A DNA stretch of 59,227 nucleotides, from contig PKDW01000100.1 in NCBI GenBank assembly GCA_002863145.1, positions 1 to 59,227 of the forward strand, in the 5' to 3' direction. A program made the position numbers and the translations under genes. Within the stretch, counting starts at the first letter, position 1. Every line of letters starts with the position of its first letter. Source of the stretch: Flavobacteriales bacterium. Lineage in GTDB: Bacteria; Bacteroidota; Bacteroidia; Flavobacteriales_D; Sanyastnellaceae. This document shows, piece after piece, positions 4,966 through 24,959 of the stretch. The notes beneath the pieces are model-generated. The model saw only the letters and a program-made list of their open reading frames with translations, searched no databases and had not been told where the DNA came from.

Positions 4966-5445
4966 TCATTGCGCTTGAAGAAGGACCACAGCATGGGCGC
5001 TCACGCCCTGCTCTAACCCCACAAATCCGAGCTTTTCAGTGGTGGTGGCTTTGATGCCCACCTGTCCCAAATCCACGCCCAAAATGTCTGCAATGCACTG
5101 ACGCATCGCGGGGATGTGCGGTTTGAGCTTAGGCTGCTGCAAACACACTGTGGAGTCAAGATTGGCCAGTCCATAGCCTTGCGCTTGGACCATCTTCCAC
5201 GTATCCCTCAACAAGATTTTGCTGTCGATGCCTTTGAAGGCTAGGACCGTGTCGGGAAAGTGCGTGCCGATGTCTCCCAAGGCGAGTGCGCCCAACATGG
5301 CGTCACAAATGACGTGGAGAAGCACGTCAGCGTCGCTGTGGCCCACCGATCCCTTGTGATGCGGAATGGTCAAGCCGCCAATGACGAGATCCTCGCCTTC
5401 AGCCAGCTCGTGAACGTCATAGCCGTAACCGATGCGCAAGCTCAT
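4966..5445 (-). CDS. ispF: 2-C-methyl-D-erythritol 2,4-cyclodiphosphate synthase
   Basis: This 159-residue enzyme carries out the fifth step of the MEP isoprenoid pathway, releasing CMP to form the cyclic diphosphate. Full length is normal for the family. Metal ligands Asp10 and His12 (GYDVH) and His44 (HSDADVLLH) are in place, as are GDIGTHFPD and the C-terminal ATTTEKLGF. Its ATG overlaps the porV stop by four bases (ATGA), so it is the last gene of the porU-porV-ispF unit. The coupling to a secretion gene is probably incidental. Confidence 0.97.
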
Positions 5446-6695
5446 TCGTCGCTGTTGACGTAGTCCGCCAAATCCGAGAACTGCAACCGGAGCGAGAAGC
5501 GAAGGGTGTTGGCCAACGGATTCTGCTGGGTGGTGCTGATAAGGTAGCTGAGGTCCACCGTGAACACGGTGTACTTCACGCCCGCCCCCAACGTCACAAA
5601 CTGGCGGTTGCCCTTGCTGAAGTGCTCAAAGAAGTATCCTGTGCGGAAGGCAAACACATCGGCGAAGTTGTATTCCAATCCGGCACCCAAATTCACCTCG
5701 CGCAACTCCTCGCGCAAGCGACTTCCCTCGAGGACAGAGGCCGTGCCTTCGCTGTCGAAAGTCACAATGCCCGGGGCGTCGTAGAAGCTCTGCACGATGC
5801 CTGTGGCGACACCCACATTGGGGTCCATGCCACTGATGATTTGGGAGGGGTCCTCCAACGCGTAGACAGGCTGCGTGGGCACCAACAATTTGTTGGCGTC
5901 CAGCGCCACAGTCAGGCTGTTGTACTCGTCCAACTCGGTTTCGTACGCCGCACCAATGCGGAGGTTGCTCGGGATGAAATCACGCGCAGCCGTCTCGGTG
6001 TAAGACATCTTCGCCCCGAGGTTGCTCATGTTCAAGCCCATGCTAAACGTGCCGTCCTTCTCACCCCAATCTGCCTGGTCGTTCACGTAGTACATGCTCA
6101 GGTCGGCCGCAACCGAAATGCCAGGTCGGCTTTCTGCACCCTGCACGGCTGTGCCACCCGTCAAGTTGCTGTGGATGAACCGCGCCGAGAAACCGCCACT
6201 GAAGCGGTCAGAGAATTTCTGAGAAAAGCCGCCGTCGAGACTGAGCTCCGCAGGTTGAAAGTCGCGGATCGTGGTGCCAACTTCGTCGGTGAAGGTGATG
6301 TTGCCCAAGCTGAAGTAGCGAAGTGCCACCCCGAAGGCCTGACGCTTGTTCAAGCGACGCACCGAACTGACGTACGCCAAATTCATGTCGTCCACCAAGG
6401 CGCGCAACCAGGGGGCGTAGCTCAAGCTCATTTCCACTTCGTTCTCCGAAAACGCCATCTTGGCCGGATTCCAATGCATGCTGTTGGCGTCGGGAGACAA
6501 CGCCACACCCACGTCGCCCATCGCCCCCGAACGCGAGTCCGGCGCAATCATCAAAAACGGCACCGCAGTGGTGATGGTGTTCAGCTGGAGCAGCTGCGTT
6601 GGGTCTTCTTCCACAATTTGACCCCACGTGTTTGTGGGGGACCAAAGGGTCAGGACCGCAATTGCAATCGCGGTGATGTTGAGGAGTTGCTTCAT
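5442..6695 (-). CDS. porV: Type IX secretion outer-membrane protein PorV (LptO)
   Basis: This 417-residue barrel of the FadL-like fold partners PorU in the surface attachment complex and shuttles T9SS cargo from the translocon. A signal peptide ([18 protein letters not shown]...TWGQ) precedes the PorV signature [20 protein letters not shown] and [12 protein letters not shown]. The C-terminus alternates like beta strands ([10 protein letters not shown]). An in-frame ATG at 6719 exists, but a perfect -7 box (6707-6714) lies between it and the ATG at 6695, so 6695 is taken. porU lies upstream by 36 bases in the same direction; ispF overlaps downstream. Confidence 0.95.
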
Positions 6696-6706
6696 CGTAG
6701 AGCTGC

Positions 6707-6714
6707 CAAAGTTA
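6707..6714 (-). promoter_or_regulatory. Promoter -7 box of porV-ispF (TAACTTTG)
   Basis: TAACTTTG on the minus strand matches TAnnTTTG and lies 11 bases before the porV ATG. It could give porV its own short-leader transcript apart from porU read-through. No clear -33 TTG is seen. Confidence 0.5.
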
Positions 6715-6731
6715 ATCATCGGTCCGAGGTG

Positions 6732-9700
6732 TCATTGGGGTCGAAGAACGACCAACTTGTCCGCGTATTGTGCGGTTTGGCCAAATTCGTTTTCCCACGT
6801 CACCCGAAACACGTACACGCCTGGAGGTACGCGCCCTCCGGAAGAAGGTTTCAAATCCCAGGTCATCACATCGTCGCGGAACCCCAAGACCTCGCCTTCA
6901 AACGTTTGCTCGTGGACGCGCTGGCCTTGGACGTTGTGCACAGCCAGCGTCACCTTGGCTTCGCGGCAGGCCTGGTTGCCCGACATGCGGAACGTCACTT
7001 GTTCGTGGGCGGGGTTGGGGTATGCCAGCACTTCCAACAAGGCGACTTCAAGCGAAGAGGCGACGACAAAGTGGGTTTGGGCTGAAGCACTGTTGTTGGC
7101 CACGTCCCACACCTTGAGTTCCAAGTGGTGCTCGCCTTCGCTCAGGTTTTGGAATGGGAAGCGGATGCTCCCGCGCTGGTAGGTGTCCAAATCCGAGACG
7201 AAGTACTCGTTCAACACAAAGGGGCGACTCGCATCTCCATCCAAGATTGCCTTGGCGTCATGGCCGATGCCATTGCCCGAGGTGTTGATGCCGCTGGCGT
7301 CAAAAATGCGGGCGAACAGCCATGGGTCTTCGTGGACCACATCCCCTGCCTTGAACAACGTGTCATTCACGAACAAGTCAACTTCAGGCCCCTCGTCATC
7401 GAGCGTGGGGTTGTCCGAGGTGCCTCCGATGATGAATGCTTCGGTGTATCCGTGGGCATCGGTGTCATTCGACAAGGCGTAACAACTGATTCGACCCGGG
7501 CCGTAGGCGTAATTCAAATCCCGCGGCACAATGAATCGGAATTCAAATTCTCCGTTCACCACGGAAGCCAAGCCCTTGTGCAAGATGTTTTGGAACACCT
7601 CGTAGGTGAACGGCCCTTCACTGGCGTCGTTGTCCAGCGTCGTGACCGAGGCGCGTTTGTCAAACACCGTGGGCACCACCACCCCGTTGAAGGCCGTGAG
7701 TGTATCGCCTTGCGCGTTCCCGACGTACCCCCCGACGACCACTTCGTCGAGCGAACGCATGGTGTCGGGCACCTGCGTGAGGTACACGCGCTCGGAGGGA
7801 TAAGACAGTTCAAGCGCCGGATCGCCCATCAAGCTAAAGTTGCGGCTGTTGGTGTGGGACGTGATTTGGTCGGAGTCCTTCGTGTCGCGGTAAATGTCCC
7901 CCAAACAGCGCCCCTGCGCGTCGTCCAGCGCCGTCTCAAAAAAGGCGCGATTCACTTGCTGGTTGCCTGAGCTGTACACCGTGCGGGTCGTGGTGAGGAG
8001 CGCCACACCTCCCCCTTGGGGGTTGAACAAAATGGCTTCTCCCGCCGAGTAGGTTTCAGGGTCGTCGTATCGGAACAATTCGCACGTGGCGGTCATGAAC
8101 ACCGGCAGACGCCGCAGGTTGGTCCACCCCTGAATCGTCTCCAAGTTCAAAATGCGTTCGTGGGCCCACCCGCGTTCTCCGCCGTGGCCGATGTAATTGA
8201 CAATCAAGGCACCTTCGTCCACGCGCCTCGCAATCTCGGCCGTGGCATCCTCATACCGCTCACCGCCTGGGGTGTTGGTTTGGACATAGGCATCGGGATA
8301 GACCTTGACCACGTCGTATTCATTGTGGTTGGCGCGAATGGTGTTGCTGTGCTCCTCGCTGTTTTCCATGTACCGGTGGCCGTCTTGGTTGTTGCCATCC
8401 TGGTCGTCTGAGACAAACAACACCCGGTTGCGCCATGGCCCGTAGGTGCTCGTGCCATTGGGGTCCAAACACGAGGCTGCATCGATGGCCCCTTCGTCCA
8501 CCCCCGAGTACGTCGCCACTTTCCCCACCACCGCCATGGCTGATGCCAAATCCGAAGCAGGAATACGCCCCACCCCCAACTGCAGCAGCTCTTCTGGCTT
8601 TTCACTCTGTCCCTCGGCCACCAAGGCGAAATAATCGTCGGAGATGTAGCTGGTCGTGGTTTGAAGCGATTCCGATGAGTAATGACCTACAATCGTCGTG
8701 CCGTTGCCCTGCACATTGCGGTTTTCGTAGGAGGCATCACCCATCAAGGTCAAATACCGCGGGGGCTGAATGGCCCCGTCGCTCTGGGCCGCGCGGTCGG
8801 TAAGCATCATCATGAGCATCTTGACGGCGGTGGGATCTGCCACGCCCGAACTGAACGCATCGAACACGTCTTGTTGAGGCACCACCGCCACGCGCAATCC
8901 CCTCGCCGCATGCAGGCTGGCCAACGAATCGGCGGCCTCCAGCAAACCAGGAACCGTGACAATCACGTTGTCCACTTCGCCGAGCCCGTGCACGTTGCTG
9001 TTGCCCACCGCCCCGAGTGCTTCAGGCCTCAGCACAGAAGACCAACGGAAGGCAGCGTAGCGCTTTGGCGCATCCCCCACGACATCTTGCCACACGGTGC
9101 TGCCGTTGGCGTTGGTGGTGGCCACACGCTTGACCTCGAGCGGGTCCGTCACATCCCACACCTCGTCAGGGGCGTTGCCACCCAAGACGTATTCCGCACC
9201 AGCAACGGGGTTCCCTTCCGCGTCGATTGGAAGGCCATTGATGTGCATTTGGCCTGAGGTGTAGACCAAATTCTGAGAGGCCTGATAGGTCAAAAAATCA
9301 ATCCACGCATTGCTGTCGTCGGTCCCCGGGGTGAACGTCGCCAGCACTTGAATCCCCTCCAGGGTCAGTGGCGCGATCAACTCACCGCCCACGTAGCGGG
9401 CATAAAGCAGCGAGGACGGGGAAAGCAAATTGTCCGTGAGGGTGACCGACTGGCCTTCGAATTCGTAGTTCAATTGGGAAGCGCTGCCGGTGCCCACGCT
9501 GCGCATGGCGGCCCCAAAACGCACTGTCGCGGGCGTGCCCAAGACGGCGTGGTTGAGCGGGATGTTCCACGTGGCCGTGTTGGCCCCAAGCGCGGAAAGC
9601 CGAGCTCCAAACCAATTTCGGCCTGAGCGGATCAAATTCACCTCGTGATCTTCACGGACGCCGTACGCGACGTGTTGGGTGCGAACCTCGTCCACACCCC

Positions 9701-10661
9701 CCGTCCAGGGCGCTGCAAACGCCATGTGCGTCAACGGAAGCGAGTCTGGTGCGTCCGTGCGCAAGAACCACTTCGCCGTGTCTCCCCAAAGCGCCGCTTC
9801 ATGCGTCCACCCATCGTCCTCGGTCCATGCCCATGTTTCGTGTGAGCTGGCATGCCAGCACATCTCGTCGCCTGGATCAAACGACCCATCCTCCAATCCG
9901 CGCAACACCACATGCTGTTGGGGAACGTCCAACGGCCGTTCCGCGTCGTTGTTCAGCGGAAGGTGTCGCCCACCTCGACCGTACAATCGGAGATTTGCGG
10001 GGTCAATGGCCCCGGGATCGACCCCAGACGCGATGAGCTCGTCGTACCCCATGCAGTGCACACCCTCTTTTGTGGTGGCGAAGGCATGCCAGATCCCCGT
10101 GACCAGAGCACTCTCCATGGGCCAGTTTCTTGTCACCCGATGGCATCCAACCGGCGACGCCCCAAGAATCGCCTTCAAGGACGTCAAGCGCTCCCATGCG
10201 CCTCGCCTGTGACGGATGACCGAACCGCTTCCGCGGAGCACCATCTGAAATCCATCCCCTTCAGCCACCCACGACCAAGGCTCGGTCGTGCGGCTGCGCC
10301 ATTGGCGTGTCCATGCCTCGTGGAGATCGGACTCCAACGGCAGCCACTCCTCTTCTACATCGAGCACCTCCACACCCTGCCATTCCAGAGAAAGCGGCAT
10401 TTGCCATGTCGCCACAGCACGGGGCTCGGGTCGCGCGACAAACGTTTGAATGTCCTCCACCTCCCACGCCAAATCGACATGCATCACCACCCCTTCGTCC
10501 GTGACGTCAGCGGAGGTTTGGGCCCAGGTATGGCTGGTCCCATGGCCTCCGAAGAGCCACAAACAACACCCCAAACCCGCATACCAAAACACCCTCCACC
10601 CACGTTGAGATGTGAACAACCTCCCCGCGAACCCGGGAAGTTCAATGTGTGAATCGCGCAT
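6732..10661 (-). CDS. porU: Type IX secretion sortase-like protease PorU (C25 family)
   Basis: This protein of about 1309 residues removes the C-terminal signal of T9SS cargo and attaches the cargo to lipopolysaccharide. The gingipain-like C25 core is clear: NYIGHGGERGW carries the catalytic His (about 826) and TATCEL the Cys (about 860). A long beta-rich N-terminal region precedes it. The C-terminal 100 residues form an Ig/CTD-like module (AYPNPAHEQVTFRM). The start is uncertain. ATG 10661 gives a long leader before the hydrophobic stretch VFWYAGLGCCLWLF, while a TTG at 10619 would give a more typical signal peptide ending TWAQ. An upstream ATG at 10823 overlaps the divergent promoter and is unlikely. 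It is first in the porU-porV-ispF unit. Confidence 0.95.
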   Translation of the reverse strand: MRDSHIELPGFAGRLFTSQRGWRVFWYAGLGCCLWLFGGHGTSHTWAQTSADVTDEGVVMHVDLAWEVEDIQTFVARPEPRAVATWQMPLSLEWQGVEVLDVEEEWLPLESDLHEAWTRQWRSRTTEPWSWVAEGDGFQMVLRGSGSVIRHRRGAWERLTSLKAILGASPVGCHRVTRNWPMESALVTGIWHAFATTKEGVHCMGYDELIASGVDPGAIDPANLRLYGRGGRHLPLNNDAERPLDVPQQHVVLRGLEDGSFDPGDEMCWHASSHETWAWTEDDGWTHEAALWGDTAKWFLRTDAPDSLPLTHMAFAAPWTGGVDEVRTQHVAYGVREDHEVNLIRSGRNWFGARLSALGANTATWNIPLNHAVLGTPATVRFGAAMRSVGTGSASQLNYEFEGQSVTLTDNLLSPSSLLYARYVGGELIAPLTLEGIQVLATFTPGTDDSNAWIDFLTYQASQNLVYTSGQMHINGLPIDAEGNPVAGAEYVLGGNAPDEVWDVTDPLEVKRVATTNANGSTVWQDVVGDAPKRYAAFRWSSVLRPEALGAVGNSNVHGLGEVDNVIVTVPGLLEAADSLASLHAARGLRVAVVPQQDVFDAFSSGVADPTAVKMLMMMLTDRAAQSDGAIQPPRYLTLMGDASYENRNVQGNGTTIVGHYSSESLQTTTSYISDDYFALVAEGQSEKPEELLQLGVGRIPASDLASAMAVVGKVATYSGVDEGAIDAASCLDPNGTSTYGPWRNRVLFVSDDQDGNNQDGHRYMENSEEHSNTIRANHNEYDVVKVYPDAYVQTNTPGGERYEDATAEIARRVDEGALIVNYIGHGGERGWAHERILNLETIQGWTNLRRLPVFMTATCELFRYDDPETYSAGEAILFNPQGGGVALLTTTRTVYSSGNQQVNRAFFETALDDAQGRCLGDIYRDTKDSDQITSHTNSRNFSLMGDPALELSYPSERVYLTQVPDTMRSLDEVVVGGYVGNAQGDTLTAFNGVVVPTVFDKRASVTTLDNDASEGPFTYEVFQNILHKGLASVVNGEFEFRFIVPRDLNYAYGPGRISCYALSNDTDAHGYTEAFIIGGTSDNPTLDDEGPEVDLFVNDTLFKAGDVVHEDPWLFARIFDASGINTSGNGIGHDAKAILDGDASRPFVLNEYFVSDLDTYQRGSIRFPFQNLSEGEHHLELKVWDVANNSASAQTHFVVASSLEVALLEVLAYPNPAHEQVTFRMSGNQACREAKVTLAVHNVQGQRVHEQTFEGEVLGFRDDVMTWDLKPSSGGRVPPGVYVFRVTWENEFGQTAQYADKLVVLRPQ

Positions 10662-10812
10662 TTTCGCAGTGAAGATTGAACCCATGATGCTCATGTCCAT
10701 CAGCACCCTTACGCACAAAGGTGCGGCATATTGTGCCTCGCACCTCCATTCGGGGTCATGCGCTGGTGGACGTGACGCGAAGTCGAGGCGCACCTCATAT
10801 ACCTCACCAAAA

Positions 10813-10827
10813 TTCCGTAACATTGTG
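10813..10827 (+). promoter_or_regulatory. Shared 15-base promoter block before the porP-like gene
   Basis: TTCCGTAACATTGTG occurs here and again, identically, at 18573-18587 before a lipoprotein gene. It contains TAACATTG, a variant -7 box, preceded by CGTAAC, which resembles ECF-sigma -10 elements. It lies 21 bases before the ATG at 10849. Whether it is an alternative-sigma promoter is inference. Confidence 0.45.
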
Positions 10828-11844: not shown

Positions 11845-11893
11845 CGCAAGAAACCTGCATCTACTCGAAACCTGAAAATTGAATCCGCACAAC

Positions 11894-13648
11894 ATGACGC
11901 AAAAGCACATTTACGGCTTGCTCGCAGTCGCCATGGGTCTCATGACCATGAATGGATGTTATTACGAGCGCTCAGGCGCTACAGGTTGGGCGTACAACTT
12001 CTATGAGAATGGCGGCTTTGAACGGACGCCGTATTTCGAACAAGAAACGGGCCCCGGTCTGATTTTCGTGGAAGGAGGTACGTTCACCATGGGCCAAGTG
12101 GATGACGACCTGAACTACGCGTGGGACAACATTCCCCGCCGCACCACCGTGTCGTCCTTCTACATGGACGAGACCGAGGTGACCAACCACTTTTGGACGG
12201 AATACCTCGCCTGGTTGCAACGCATCTACGGCTCTTCCTACCCCGAAATTGTGGAGCGCGCCTTGCCCGACACGGCGGCTTGGAGAAACAAGCTGGCCTA
12301 CAACGAGCCCATGGTTAATTTCTACTTGCGCCACCCCGCCTACCGCGATTACCCAGTGGTTGGTGTGAGTTGGTTGCAAGCCAACGACTTCTGCAAATGG
12401 CGGTCGGACCGTGTGAACGAGGGCATCCTTGTCCGTGAGGGCCTCTTGTTGCACAACCCCGATGCCCAAATCGACGAAGAGCACTTCACCACAGAAACGT
12501 ACCTCTCTGGCCAGTACCAGGGCGAGCGTGAGCGCGAAGGCCTGCCGAGCTACAGCCTGAACGCAGAGTTTCGCGACGTCCGCATGGAGGACGGCGTGCT
12601 CTTGCCCAACTACCGTCTGCCCACGGAAGCCGAGTGGGAGTTCGCAGCCCTCGGCCTCATTGGCAACAGCTTGGGTGAACTCGTTGCAGAGCGCAAAACG
12701 TATCCTTGGAATGGTCACTTCGTACGGAACGGAGACAGCCGCACCGGCGGATACGGAAGCATCAATGCCAACTTCGTAAAAGGACGTGGTGACTACATGG
12801 GTGTCGCGGGTGCGTTGGATGACTTCGGAGACATCACTGTCGACGTGTACGCCTACGCCCCCAATGACTACGGCTTGTTCAACATGGCTGGGAACGTCAA
12901 CGAGTGGGTGATGGACGTCTACCGTCCCTTGTCCATCCAAGACAACAACGAATTCCGCCCCTTCCGTGGCAACGTCTACCAAACGAAGCGCCTTGATGCG
13001 GAGGGACGCCCTGTCGACAAGTACGACTACGTGGTCTACAACATTCCCGGTGTCAAGGAATTCCTCGGCACGTATGAGAGGGAAGGCAACAGCGTCGGCA
13101 TTTTCACGCCAGAAGACGTGGATTTGATGGGCAACCTCACGTCCAAAGTCAATGAGGCCGAAGAGCGCTTGAAGCAACAGCGTTTTGAGGAAGCCCAAAC
13201 CCTCATGCAAGACGCCATGGATCTCATTGTGGACAGCGACGCCATTGCCGCATCTGATTTACGCAAGGGCTTCAGCAACAACATCGATGCCCTTCCAGGC
13301 CAAATGCAAAAGCGGAACGAGTCCCTTGAGGAGAACTTGAACCGGACCAACTACCGCATCGCCGACAACATCGACTACCTCGATGGCGATCGCAACAGCT
13401 CGTTCGATTTCGCGGCCCAGTCGGCTGAGGAAGATCAGCTGAAAGACAAACGCGTGTACAACTTTGGAGGCTCGTCGCTCATCAGCAACCGCAGCCGCGT
13501 CTACAAAGGCGGAGGTTGGGATGACCGCGCCTACTATCTCATTCCAGGCACGCGTCGCTACCTCGACGAACGTCAGAGCTCGGCTTCCATCGGCTTCCGA
13601 TGTGCCATGGACCGCGTGGGAACACCGGTTCCCTTCAGCGGACAATGA
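11894..13648 (+). CDS. gldJ: Gliding motility/T9SS lipoprotein GldJ
   Basis: This 584-residue lipoprotein has a lipobox at MTMNGC (Cys22). GldJ is needed for T9SS function and stabilises GldK and other core parts. The body is a formylglycine-generating-enzyme-like (SUMF1) fold: FVEGGTFTMGQ, FYMDETEVTNHFW, YRLPTEAEWEFAA, GNVNEWVMDVYRP and GFRCAM. A long insert near residues 390-520 contains a charged helical stretch (NEAEERLKQQRFEEAQTL). As in other GldJ proteins the fold is thought to be non-catalytic. The TTG five codons upstream is less likely than the ATG at 11894. It follows the PorP-like gene and ends before a strong terminator. Confidence 0.94.
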   Translation: MTQKHIYGLLAVAMGLMTMNGCYYERSGATGWAYNFYENGGFERTPYFEQETGPGLIFVEGGTFTMGQVDDDLNYAWDNIPRRTTVSSFYMDETEVTNHFWTEYLAWLQRIYGSSYPEIVERALPDTAAWRNKLAYNEPMVNFYLRHPAYRDYPVVGVSWLQANDFCKWRSDRVNEGILVREGLLLHNPDAQIDEEHFTTETYLSGQYQGEREREGLPSYSLNAEFRDVRMEDGVLLPNYRLPTEAEWEFAALGLIGNSLGELVAERKTYPWNGHFVRNGDSRTGGYGSINANFVKGRGDYMGVAGALDDFGDITVDVYAYAPNDYGLFNMAGNVNEWVMDVYRPLSIQDNNEFRPFRGNVYQTKRLDAEGRPVDKYDYVVYNIPGVKEFLGTYEREGNSVGIFTPEDVDLMGNLTSKVNEAEERLKQQRFEEAQTLMQDAMDLIVDSDAIAASDLRKGFSNNIDALPGQMQKRNESLEENLNRTNYRIADNIDYLDGDRNSSFDFAAQSAEEDQLKDKRVYNFGGSSLISNRSRVYKGGGWDDRAYYLIPGTRRYLDERQSSASIGFRCAMDRVGTPVPFSGQ

Positions 13649-20806: not shown

Positions 20807-23800
20807 TTAAAGACATGTGTTGCCGAAGTCCACGAGGAACACCAAGAGGTCAGCCGTGGTCGTAGAACCGTCGCCATTCAAGTCCGTGGGACATGGGTTG
20901 GCCATGGTGAATTCGCACGAACCGTCGTCTTGCGTTGCACCCGCAGTGAAGTTGTCTGCGTTGGGGTAGGTGCACCCCACACAGTTAAACGTACACTGGC
21001 TTGCGTCGCCCAAGATGGCGTTCGCATTGAAGTTGCACGCATCGGGGTTGTTGCAACCAAAGGCAGAGCTGTTTGCAGCACCAGGGGTTCCGTTGTCCAC
21101 CCATGAGGCTTGCCAGTTGCCTGGCAAGTCGTTGCCGTTGCCGAGAGGCGTGGTCAATGAAGCAGCGAGAATCTCAGGGATGTACTCCAAGGTGGCACAG
21201 CCGCCATCGGGGCTTTCGATGTAGTTGAAGCCAAGGATGCCTTGAGCCGCAGAAGGCCATGCACCGCCATCGTCGTAGGTCACAGCGTTCACAGTGTTGC
21301 CAAAGGCGTCGCGCAATGCGAGGGCCTCACCTGAGTTGCTGAAGTTGCCTTGGGTCATTTCGAAGATTTGAGCACCGGTCGACGCGTAGTTCGCAGCACC
21401 TGCCTCAGACACAACCACGAGGATGAATTCACCGGCAGCCATGGTGGTGCCCTCAGGGAACACCACGCTGAGTTGGTCGTTGCCTCCTGTGGAGTTGTAA
21501 AACTCGTAGCCCGAAATGTCCGCGGCCAAATCGCCCGTGTTCAACAATTCCACGAACTCGTAATCGAAGTCGTCCCCTTGGCTGGTGCAGGGGTTGTAGT
21601 GAATCTCGTTGATGATGATGCTGGGCAACGTGTAGTAGCACGTGGTGTTGTCCTCAAGCGTCGTGTTCTCATTGTAGTTCAGTGCCGTGGGGTCCGTGCA
21701 ACCCGTGATGACGCAAGAGCCGTCGTCTGCCGTGGCATCGGGGTTGTAGTTGTCGGCGGATGCATCCGTGCAACCAGAAACGTCTGAGCAAGAACCGTCG
21801 TCCTCAGAAGCAAGCGGATCGTAGTTGGGGAACGTTGCGTCTGTGCAACCGATACGCACCACGTCGGCCGTGTCGCGTGGGCAAACCTTCCAGTTGCCGT
21901 AGCTGTAGAAGTTGGGGCCCGTGACGCGATAGTTCGAGCCATCTTGAACAAGTGCCACATTGACACCATCCACCAAGACGCTGTCGTTGACCGCGTTGTA
22001 GCCGAGGGATGCCGCCATGCCTTGACCGGCTCCGTCGCTGAGGATCCACTCGCCGAAGTTGGCCGTGATGCCCGTGACAGTTCCTGTCATTTCAACCAAC
22101 ACACACTCCCACTGTTCATCGTTGATGGCACCCGGAGCGAGTGTTTCTGACGCAGGCAAGGCGTTGCCTGAAGATTGCACTGTGGGCACAGCGGAGAGGA
22201 TCTGACGCAAGCCAAAGACTTCGTTGACCGTACCTGAGACTTCCACTTGGTCGCCCACAGCCACGCCATCGCCAATCACCCAAATGGCCGAGTTGGCCCC
22301 TGCACCGTTCTGAATCACGTAAGAAGGCTGACCTGCCAAAGCGCCGTTGTTGCCGTAGATGGCAGTCACAACACCTGACGTCACCACGCTTCCTGAGAAG
22401 CCCTGGGTTTGGATGTCCTGGACACTCAAGCTGGGAATGAAGATGCATGACCCGTCATCTTCTGTCGCTGTTGGATCGTAGTTCACAGCGCCTGAATCGG
22501 TGCAGCCTGTGTTGTCCACTGCGCACGCTCCGTTGAAGGTGTGCACGCCCAAGTTGGTCCAATCGTTGGAGGGATTGATGATCCACTCAGTGTCAATTTC
22601 ATTGGTGCCTGCGCTGGCCGCCCAATCCCCTCCATTTCCGAAGGAAACCTCAGGCTTACGGACCAGCGTGGCGTTTTGCGTGGCGTTGGTCACACCAGCC
22701 ACGTCAAAGCCAGAACCAGGATCGGGACCGAAGTCACCGATGGCGTCCACCACGGTCGTGTCCCCTCCGGCGATGTTCACCAAGAAGTACGCATCGTCGC
22801 CGTTGCTCAAGAACGTGAAAGTCATGTTCGCCACAGCCAAGATGATGGGGTCCGCAGTGGGGTGAGCCACGATGTATGTTCCGCCTGGCGACACTTGGTC
22901 GCCTGCAGGGAAGTTGAACGTCCAGAAATCCACGTTGTCTGTGATGCTGGATGATGCACCCAAATCGTCACAGCCATTGCTGCAGTTGCCAAACGTGTAC
23001 TCGTCCAAGAAAATGGGAGAACTCGTGGGGTTGTAAAGTTCGATGTACTTGTTGTTTGCGGAACCTTCGGCCACCTCTGAAACGAACAACCCACATTCAC
23101 CGCCTTCGATGTCACAGCTTCCATCTTCGATCGAGGCCAAAACGTTGTAGTTCAACGCACCTGCGTTGGTGCAACCGTACAGGAGGGCGTCCGCAGCGTC
23201 GCGAGGCTGCACCTTGAAGTTGCCGAAAGCGTAGTCGAGTGCACCGGACACTTGCAATTGGTTGCCCAAAGCCACCAAGCCTGCGCCAATGGCGTCGTAT
23301 CCCGCATCGTCCACACGGAGGTCGCCCGAGCCATCAGAAAGGGCCCACTCGCCAAAACCTGCGTCCGCGTTGGTCACAACACCCGTGACCTGCACCAAAA
23401 CACCTTCCCAAGGCTCCGCACCGGCATCAACCGTGGTCAACACTTCAGCGACGGGCGAGGCGTTGCCCTGGCTGAGGATGACGGTGGCGGGGGTGGAGAT
23501 TTGGGTTTTGTCGAAGTACTCCGAGACTGCACCGGTCACCTCCACCTCATCACCCAACTGAACGGGGACATCTGGAGAGAAGAGCCACAAACCGCTGTAC
23601 GCGCCTTGGCCGTCCTGGATGCTCACATTCGAGCCATAGACACCCGTCACGACGCCGCGTGTCACCACGACTGAATCGGAAAACACGCCGGTCTCTTGGC
23701 CTTGTTGAATGGTCGCAATGCTGGTCAATTCCACAATCAAGCATGAACCATCGTCGTAATCCGCAGCGGGATTGTAGTTGGCTGCAGCCGCGTTCGTGCA

Positions 23801-24826
23801 ACCGCCTGTGCCCACAGTGATGGAAGCCACCATGCCCAATGCAGCGTGAGAACCGATGGAGCAATCGTAGGTGTACACACCAGGCGTGTTGAACGTGTAG
23901 GAACCGATGCACACTCCTGCCGCGTCTCCCGAGACGGGAGCCAAGTAGAACGCTTCGGGGTTTCCAAAGGAAGAACCCGTTTGAGAATCGATGTCGCCAT
24001 TGACGTCGTGGGTGCCACCGAGGTTGGACCACACGACCGTTTGGCCGGGCTCAATGGTCAAGTTGGCAGGGTTGTATTGGAAGCTGCTTGCCTCTACCAC
24101 AACGCCGTCCACGTTGCACGCGTTGTCAAACATGCAGCTGCCATCGTCTTGGGTGGCGTCCGCATTGTAGTTCGTGGCATTGGCGTTGGTGCATCCAAGC
24201 ACTGCGGCGCCGCAGCCATCGAAGCTGTGCATGGCGAGGTTGGTCCAATCGTTTTGATCGAGGACAATCCACTCACTGCTTTCCGCATCCGTGCCTGCGC
24301 TGGTGATCCAGTCGCCGCCGTTGCCAGACTGCACAGAAGACTTGCGGACGATCGTGTGATCTTTCGTCCCTGCCGTCACACCTGCCACGTCCCAGCCTGA
24401 GCCGGGATCACCGTTCCAGTCGCCAACCGCGTCAATCTGAACAAAAGACGTCTGGTCGCCTTGAACCAAAATGAAGCCATCATCTCCATTTGAGAGGAAT
24501 GTGAATGTGTGGTCCGCCTCAGCCAGAATGGTTGGGTCTGACGAGGGGTGTGCAATCACATACACGTCGCCCGCCGCCACCATTGCACCCTCCGGAAATG
24601 CGTTCCAAAATTCATATTCGCCCACGACCGATGGTGCATTGGACACGCTGGGAAAGGCGTAACCGCTCAGGTCCACATCAGCGCCAGTTGGGTTGTAGAT
24701 CTCGAGATACTTGTTGTTCGAGGAGCCTTCCGCGGCCTCTGAGAAGAAGAGGTTTTCGCACTGGGCCCATGTGGCTCCTGCACTCCAGATGAGCAGCGCC
24801 GAAGCAAGCAAGGTTGAAAAACGCAT
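20807..24826 (-). CDS. Large secreted protein: lamin-tail, cupredoxin, OB-fold and Cys-repeat domains
   Basis: This 1339-residue protein has a signal peptide (MRFSTLLASALLIWSAGATWAQ). In order it contains: a lamin-tail domain (about 24-205); a cupredoxin (about 235-335) with all four type-1 copper ligand positions (THDVNG His, YDCSIGSH Cys and His, then LGM Met); an OB-fold-like domain (VTRGVVTGVYGSNVSIQDG); a second lamin-tail; a second OB-fold; and a third lamin-tail. Nine short cysteine repeats of the form GCTnxxAxNYNxxAxxDDGSC separate them. The last 28 residues (CPTDLNGDGSTTTADLLVFL) look like one dockerin-type calcium loop. No T9SS C-terminal domain is apparent. Upstream ATGs would precede a basic leader, so 24826 is taken. 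A -7-like TACTTTTA lies at 24856-24863. The function is unknown; extracellular copper or nucleic-acid-related roles are guesses. Confidence 0.85.
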   Translation of the reverse strand: MRFSTLLASALLIWSAGATWAQCENLFFSEAAEGSSNNKYLEIYNPTGADVDLSGYAFPSVSNAPSVVGEYEFWNAFPEGAMVAAGDVYVIAHPSSDPTILAEADHTFTFLSNGDDGFILVQGDQTSFVQIDAVGDWNGDPGSGWDVAGVTAGTKDHTIVRKSSVQSGNGGDWITSAGTDAESSEWIVLDQNDWTNLAMHSFDGCGAAVLGCTNANATNYNADATQDDGSCMFDNACNVDGVVVEASSFQYNPANLTIEPGQTVVWSNLGGTHDVNGDIDSQTGSSFGNPEAFYLAPVSGDAAGVCIGSYTFNTPGVYTYDCSIGSHAALGMVASITVGTGGCTNAAAANYNPAADYDDGSCLIVELTSIATIQQGQETGVFSDSVVVTRGVVTGVYGSNVSIQDGQGAYSGLWLFSPDVPVQLGDEVEVTGAVSEYFDKTQISTPATVILSQGNASPVAEVLTTVDAGAEPWEGVLVQVTGVVTNADAGFGEWALSDGSGDLRVDDAGYDAIGAGLVALGNQLQVSGALDYAFGNFKVQPRDAADALLYGCTNAGALNYNVLASIEDGSCDIEGGECGLFVSEVAEGSANNKYIELYNPTSSPIFLDEYTFGNCSNGCDDLGASSSITDNVDFWTFNFPAGDQVSPGGTYIVAHPTADPIILAVANMTFTFLSNGDDAYFLVNIAGGDTTVVDAIGDFGPDPGSGFDVAGVTNATQNATLVRKPEVSFGNGGDWAASAGTNEIDTEWIINPSNDWTNLGVHTFNGACAVDNTGCTDSGAVNYDPTATEDDGSCIFIPSLSVQDIQTQGFSGSVVTSGVVTAIYGNNGALAGQPSYVIQNGAGANSAIWVIGDGVAVGDQVEVSGTVNEVFGLRQILSAVPTVQSSGNALPASETLAPGAINDEQWECVLVEMTGTVTGITANFGEWILSDGAGQGMAASLGYNAVNDSVLVDGVNVALVQDGSNYRVTGPNFYSYGNWKVCPRDTADVVRIGCTDATFPNYDPLASEDDGSCSDVSGCTDASADNYNPDATADDGSCVITGCTDPTALNYNENTTLEDNTTCYYTLPSIIINEIHYNPCTSQGDDFDYEFVELLNTGDLAADISGYEFYNSTGGNDQLSVVFPEGTTMAAGEFILVVVSEAGAANYASTGAQIFEMTQGNFSNSGEALALRDAFGNTVNAVTYDDGGAWPSAAQGILGFNYIESPDGGCATLEYIPEILAASLTTPLGNGNDLPGNWQASWVDNGTPGAANSSAFGCNNPDACNFNANAILGDASQCTFNCVGCTYPNADNFTAGATQDDGSCEFTMANPCPTDLNGDGSTTTADLLVFLVDFGNTCL

Positions 24827-24855
24827 TTGTTTGGGAATTAAAGGTTTTGGACGAG

Positions 24856-24863
24856 TAAAAGTA
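24856..24863 (-). promoter_or_regulatory. Weak -7-like box (TACTTTTA) before the secreted-protein gene
   Basis: TACTTTTA on the minus strand differs from TAnnTTTG only at the last base and lies 29 bases before the ATG at 24826. The 24827-24959 interval is AT-rich and otherwise shows no clear motif. Confidence 0.3.
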
Positions 24864-24959
24864 CGCATTCCAAGACGAAAACCGGCGATTGAACGAAGAG
24901 TTCACCAAGGCTTTACATAGGCTTTGGATATAACCCTGTATAACCCGTCGAAAAGTCGT

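Follow-up and report, generated by a model that had tools for sequence, protein, structure and literature searches.

By which signal is a large secreted protein brought to its place in a bacterium that possesses a type IX secretion system (T9SS), when the protein matches none of the known C-terminal domains (CTDs) of this system? The question is raised by a gene on contig PKDW01000100.1 (GenBank assembly GCA_002863145.1) of an uncultured marine Flavobacteriales bacterium, whose assembly is 94% complete and comprises 187 contigs. The stretch of DNA analysed, positions 1 to 59,227, is referred to as the window. The gene (20807..24826, minus strand, as are all parts of it described below) encodes a 1339-residue mosaic of lamin tail, ExeM/NucH-like, cupredoxin and cysteine-rich (Cys) repeat units that ends in a short dockerin-type tail. 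The reading favoured here, with moderate confidence, is that the mosaic is an exported, non-catalytic surface or matrix protein and that the tail is a family-specific sorting or anchoring tag replacing the T9SS CTD. It draws on the architecture and conservation of the mosaic, the recurrence of the tail at the C-terminus of other proteins, the lack of any observed overlap with T9SS CTDs, the T9SS core genes nearby, and the replacement of one tail by the other on enzymes.

The C-terminal tail

The last 30 residues of the mosaic (20810..20899), NPCPTDLNGDGSTTTADLLVFLVDFGNTCL, hold one loop, D1329-x-N-x-D-G-x5-D1340, which agrees with the calcium loop DxNxDGxxxxxD of dockerin type I; the second tandem loop of dockerin type I is missing. 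The tail profile A1 recognises this segment at E 3.0e-15, and among PDB sequences a cellulosomal dockerin matches it best (E 3.7e-4). The GC-type dockerin model NF041540 aligns through its positions 30-67 only and reaches 19.6 bits, below the cut-off of 29. Bracketing cysteines and the residues of the calcium loop are among the most conserved positions of the tail. Its make-up is that of a Cys-bracketed, putatively calcium-binding loop of dockerin type followed by a predicted helix. A sequence-only reading of this DNA had described both the single dockerin-like loop and the lack of a T9SS domain. Each holds: neither type A (TIGR04183) nor type B (TIGR04131) CTDs match the mosaic at E up to 1 in an NCBIfam scan, which rules out a known CTD subtype.

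The tail is not without relatives. A related two-loop model, the "GC-type dockerin" (NF041540), is already known in NCBIfam, and the single-loop tail is a variant of it. The two share the loop–helix sequence type and the C-terminal position, but the tail of the mosaic has a single loop and scores below the cut-off, and in the host family the tail takes the place of T9SS CTDs. With cellulosomal dockerins (e.g. 2y3n chain B) it shares the DxNxDGxxxxxD loop together with the residues that follow; unlike them, it has one loop and bracketing cysteines, and it occurs in a genome in which no cohesin was found. The literature searched, which left out most subscription journals, contains no description of the tail.

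The tail in the host genome

A tail profile built from 28 tails finds 86 loops in the host genome at E up to 0.5. In the regions selected by these matches, 51 open reading frames (ORFs) bear the tail, a number that is approximate because several of them are cut at contig ends. The ORF ends within 7 residues of the loop in 49 of the 51. A chance or one-off tail is ruled out by this census. The carriers are of typically secreted kinds and include M43 and M12B peptidases, Endonuclease I, endonuclease/exonuclease/phosphatase (EEP) nucleases, esterases, glucose dehydrogenase (GSDH), arylsulfotransferase and FG-GAP/UnbV proteins. A crude signal peptide test detects a hydrophobic N-terminal core in 28 of the 38 tail frames with a complete 5' end.

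The 49 terminal tails comprise 28 with a single loop and 21 with a tandem double loop, and four two-loop proteins of the host exceed the cut-off of NF041540. Tandem loops, as in real dockerins, invite the explanation that the tail is a docking module: its carriers would be exported by another route and bound, depending on calcium, by a cohesin-like receptor at the surface, giving a multi-enzyme assembly. The dockerin-type loop sequence, the four proteins above the cut-off and the cellulosomal PDB match all fit this proposal. It is nevertheless doubtful, as the Pfam cohesin (PF00963) has no match in the 94% complete genome and the single-loop forms, that of the mosaic included, are without a second half; assembly via a recognisable cohesin thus has nothing in its favour from this search.

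A Cys repeat directly precedes 19 of the 28 single-loop tails. This frequent neighbourhood of another Cys-rich module, together with the conservation of the bracketing cysteines and the calcium loop, would suit a mere protective end cap, stabilised by calcium and disulfides and devoid of a sorting function. Such a cap does not predict the strict C-terminal location seen in 49 of 51 ORFs, nor the absence of ORFs with two kinds of tail or the replacement of T9SS CTDs in two enzyme families described below, and is quite unlikely. The Cys repeats themselves are not the tag and are independent of the tail, because they are also present in ORFs with a T9SS type A CTD (contigs C29, in a 1315-aa frame, C53, C130, C160 and C165). 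TIGR04183 exceeds its cut-off in 47 ORFs of the host, one of which is PorU. A comparison by eye of the two genome match lists, by position and frame length, revealed no ORF with both the tail and TIGR04183 at a confident score.

Distribution among relatives

Among 150 relatives, many genera of the host's own GTDB family have between 30 and more than 54 tails (among the matches listed); counts are low in genera g3, g20, g7, g11, g17 and g19, and genomes from the order's other families have 0-3. In a sample of 395 genomes of the phylum, matches are confined to the host genome, one family member and one genome with a single hit. T9SS CTDs are present in 149 of the 150 relatives, and type A CTDs in every tail-rich genome examined.

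Two peculiarities of individual tail proteins may be added. Those of L196, L204 and L212 match Cu-binding_MopE (PF11617), a putative metal-binding motif whose cut-off is exceeded in L204 and L212. In L209 and L190, an extra internal copy of the loop lies about 80-90 residues ahead of the terminal one.

Replacement of the T9SS domain on enzymes

Endonuclease I carries the tail in all 31 close homologs from the host's own family. Its counterparts in family f8 carry TIGR04183 instead, namely L242 (58% identical, 29.7 bits) and L295 (38 bits). On the Endonuclease I tree, the remaining tailless homologs were scored as T9SS, among them L294 and L298-L300, which look CTD-like but gave no score; the tree is weakly resolved, and the number and direction of tail changes are not readable from it. 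GSDH offers a clearer picture. Five sequences of the host's own genus bear the tail and form one clade (support 100/100), while the other 37 homologs, including the outgroup L289, terminate in a T9SS-type CTD, as called by a profile made from the host genome's own TIGR04183 matches. This amounts to one change on the tree, most simply from CTD to tail, because the other 37, outgroup included, carry the CTD. The host genome also encodes a GSDH paralog (contig C75, 60-62% identical) with TIGR04183 at 35.7 bits. Homologs of body segments of the mosaic (the lamin tail domains and the ExeM/NucH-like segments) behave in a comparable way: three from outside the family (L135, L145 and L150) terminate in TIGR04183, and so does L137 (plus strand) from within it.

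In two enzyme families, one and the same catalytic domain is followed by the tail in some proteins and by the T9SS CTD in others. Like the type A domain, the tail is a C-terminal module of secreted enzymes; these are of the same kinds in both cases, and so is the position behind the catalytic domain. It differs from that domain in having no sequence match to it and in its build, about 30 residues of loop and predicted helix versus an immunoglobulin-like sandwich of about 100 residues.

This equivalence of position leads to the idea of a third class of T9SS signal: the T9SS itself would recognise the Cys-bracketed calcium loop through an unknown shuttle and export the carriers. The host does have a T9SS, because PorV (5442..6719, minus strand; NF033710, 445 bits, cut-off 250) and the sortase PorU (6732..10823, minus strand; NF033707, 972 bits, cut-off 420) are encoded in the window. 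A GldJ-like lipoprotein (11879..13648, plus strand) scores 432.7 bits with TIGR03524, just below the cut-off of 458.2. These three genes lie about 7-19 kb away from the mosaic, and in many relatives porV is found on the mosaic's contig within about 20 kb. The T9SS reads more than one class of CTD (PMC12618676), which provides a precedent, and the idea is further favoured by the type A CTDs in all tail-rich genomes examined, the extreme C-terminal location typical of T9SS signals and the replacement of TIGR04183 in GSDH and Endonuclease I. The known CTDs are larger and have beta structure, type A with about 100 aa and type B with 150-235 aa (PMC12618676), in contrast to a tail of about 30 aa. 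Tail-rich genomes possess no additional PorV-family gene, and nothing connects the tail with SprA or a shuttle. A third T9SS signal is unlikely on this balance, and the lack of a PorV-family excess speaks against a dedicated PorV-type shuttle. Recognition by the T9SS and docking are both specific versions of the sorting or anchoring reading, and their probabilities overlap with its own.

A proposed tag for sorting or anchoring

According to the favoured reading, the mosaic would be exported by Sec, its signal peptide being cut before Gln36, and would work beyond the inner membrane; there it would be a surface or matrix protein, rich in disulfides and not catalytic. The lamin tail and ExeM-like domains would act as binding modules, the Cys repeats as linkers, and the one cupredoxin would probably hold copper. 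The last 30 residues would be a tag shared by about 50 secreted proteins, located where other proteins have the T9SS CTD and most likely sorting or anchoring its carrier at the cell surface. The suggestion of an unrecognised sorting signal, already made from the sequence, is a reasonable one in view of the roughly 50 proteins that end in the tail and its exchange in enzyme families, but the localisation in it is a prediction. A broader proposal is more tentative: the host's family may have a further C-terminal signal for export or sorting, a disulfide-bracketed calcium loop of 30 residues that is read by the T9SS or another machine. It would stand in for the T9SS CTD on about half of the secreted proteins that bear a tag in this family.

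Several observations weigh against assigning the tail such a role. The replacement on enzymes is a shared position of two tails and no proof of a shared job. No receptor, shuttle or exporter for the tail was found; besides the missing cohesin, PorV-family genes are not in excess in tail-rich genomes (2-3 in the host's own genus, 3-5 in the tail-poor genera g3 and g20). In a comparison of 20 genera, the densities of tails and T9SS CTDs show no significant anticorrelation (rho -0.25, p 0.28), which does not support a genome-wide trade-off. The AlphaFold2 (AF2) model of the tail, with a predicted local distance difference test (pLDDT) score of 53, is too poor for use.

If the tail is indeed a sorting or anchoring tag, predictions of T9SS cargo from the known CTD profiles overlook much of what a widespread family of marine Flavobacteriales secretes. 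The question is directly testable, as nature provides pairs of the same enzyme with two tails: the GSDH paralogs in one genome, and Endonuclease I across families.

Reading frame and body of the mosaic

From its first ATG, the open frame spans 20807-24868 (1353 aa). Met15, the start already used in the sequence-only reading, is preferred, because it opens a clear signal peptide and many orthologs align only from about residue 13; the coding sequence from there comprises 1339 aa and a stop codon. The predicted signal peptide, MRFSTLLASALLIWSAGATWA (residues 15-35, 24764..24826), is followed by Q (Gln36) at the cleavage point, in line with the Q-rule of Bacteroidetes signal peptides (PMC5837995).

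The body begins with lamin tail domain 1 (approximately residues 37-222, 24203..24760), which also matches the ExeM N-terminus, and Cys repeat 1, CTNANATNYNADATQDDGSC (24134..24193). After the cupredoxin (23807..24118) come Cys repeat 2 (23741..23800), the first ExeM/NucH-like segment (23180..23737) and Cys repeat 3 (23114..23173). Lamin tail domain 2 (approximately residues 590-785, 22514..23101), 53% identical to domain 1, leads via Cys repeat 4 (22445..22504) to the second ExeM/NucH-like segment (21854..22441), 47% identical to the first. Cys repeats 5-7 stand in tandem (21638..21847), ahead of lamin tail domain 3 (21065..21625; best PF00932 stretch 1082-1198), the degenerate Cys repeat 8 (20993..21055) and Cys repeat 9 (20915..20974), which immediately precedes the tail. 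A pattern search counts nine Cys repeats, of which seven are canonical and two are degenerate, and the Pfam model PF00932 matches the mosaic in three stretches (E 3.7e-41); the numbers of repeats and of lamin tail domains are those originally described. The literature searched for the repeat motif gave only unrelated matches among the matches listed.

The two remaining segments had been taken for domains like the oligonucleotide/oligosaccharide-binding (OB) fold. They do match each other, and in two stretches they correspond to N-terminal regions of ExeM/NucH (NF033681, E 2e-15). The putative OB label rests on this homology; a PDB sequence search with the first segment gave no significant match. 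The likeness to ExeM/NucH nucleases (NF033680, NF033681), in which a lamin tail domain and the next segment resemble the N-terminal, non-catalytic part, would be the argument for a secreted nuclease or polymer-degrading enzyme. This is where the resemblance ends: unlike those nucleases, the mosaic has no EEP domain (PF03372), and Pfam and NCBIfam reveal no nuclease, hydrolase or other catalytic domain, lamin tail (LTD) and Copper-bind being the only models above the curated Pfam cut-offs. The carbon- or nucleic-acid-degrading role once considered finds no support, and an enzyme of this kind is highly improbable. The other part of that proposal, a secreted mosaic of surface type whose type-1 copper site is plausible, is supported.

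The cupredoxin domain

Copper-bind (PF00127) matches the mosaic once, with 33.2 bits against a cut-off of 21.2, at approximately residues 251-354. All four ligand positions, H287, C336, H341 and M346, are filled, as the sequence-only reading had it, and an alignment shows them retained together in 25 of 26 homologs. The AF2 model, computed from 22 sequences, has moderate confidence (pLDDT 76) and resembles amicyanin, plastocyanin and auracyanin in the PDB at template modelling (TM) scores of about 0.5-0.6. Designed tetratricopeptide repeat (TPR) proteins, which phmmer returned as PDB matches of the segment, were ignored as sums of weak repeats. The ligand spacing, C-x4-H-x4-M, is typical of auracyanin and rusticyanin, unlike plastocyanin.

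Profile, modelled fold and the four ligand residues in sequence register are those of a type-1 cupredoxin. The domain likely binds copper, given the near-complete retention of the ligands among homologs and the resemblance of the model to blue copper proteins. With plastocyanin, amicyanin and auracyanin it shares the modelled fold and the His, Cys, His and Met positions; unlike these small proteins, it sits inside a 1339-aa mosaic.

The sole exception among the 26 homologs is L148 (5019-5357, G022), whose cupredoxin has lost two ligands, the Cys and one of the His residues (YDSGIASDVVAGM), and may be a natural apo variant.

Orthologs and locus

The 26 related loci are mostly full or partial orthologs from Flavobacteriales metagenome assemblies. 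The whole architecture is retained in orthologs at 57-97% identity, and the same tail terminates each ortholog whose 3' end is present. The whole-gene ratio of nonsynonymous to synonymous substitution rates (dN/dS) is 0.03-0.14 against four orthologs, a rough estimate because dS approaches saturation in three of these comparisons, and points to purifying selection. This selection and the retention of the architecture by orthologs show that the mosaic layout is not due to chance.

More distant family members at the same locus (L138, L139 and L142-L144) have domains of the LTD3 and OB types and still terminate in a Cys repeat and a single loop, with no cupredoxin match. Judged by these profile matches, the copper domain has been gained or lost within the host's own family, because the positional orthologs do not have it. 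The body of the mosaic is reshuffled between genera, with the Cys repeat and single-loop tail constant where the 3' end is present.

The gene order glycosyltransferase, RNase HII, mosaic is family-wide wherever the contig reaches, and a sodium/phosphate (Na/Pi) symporter gene comes next after the mosaic in the host's own genus and several others. The same pair occurs in L112 (contig NZGD01000135.1, under the title Rhodopirellula sp. MED697), where the mosaic is 95% and the Na/Pi symporter 98.6% identical; this is probably a misbinned contig within a planctomycete assembly.

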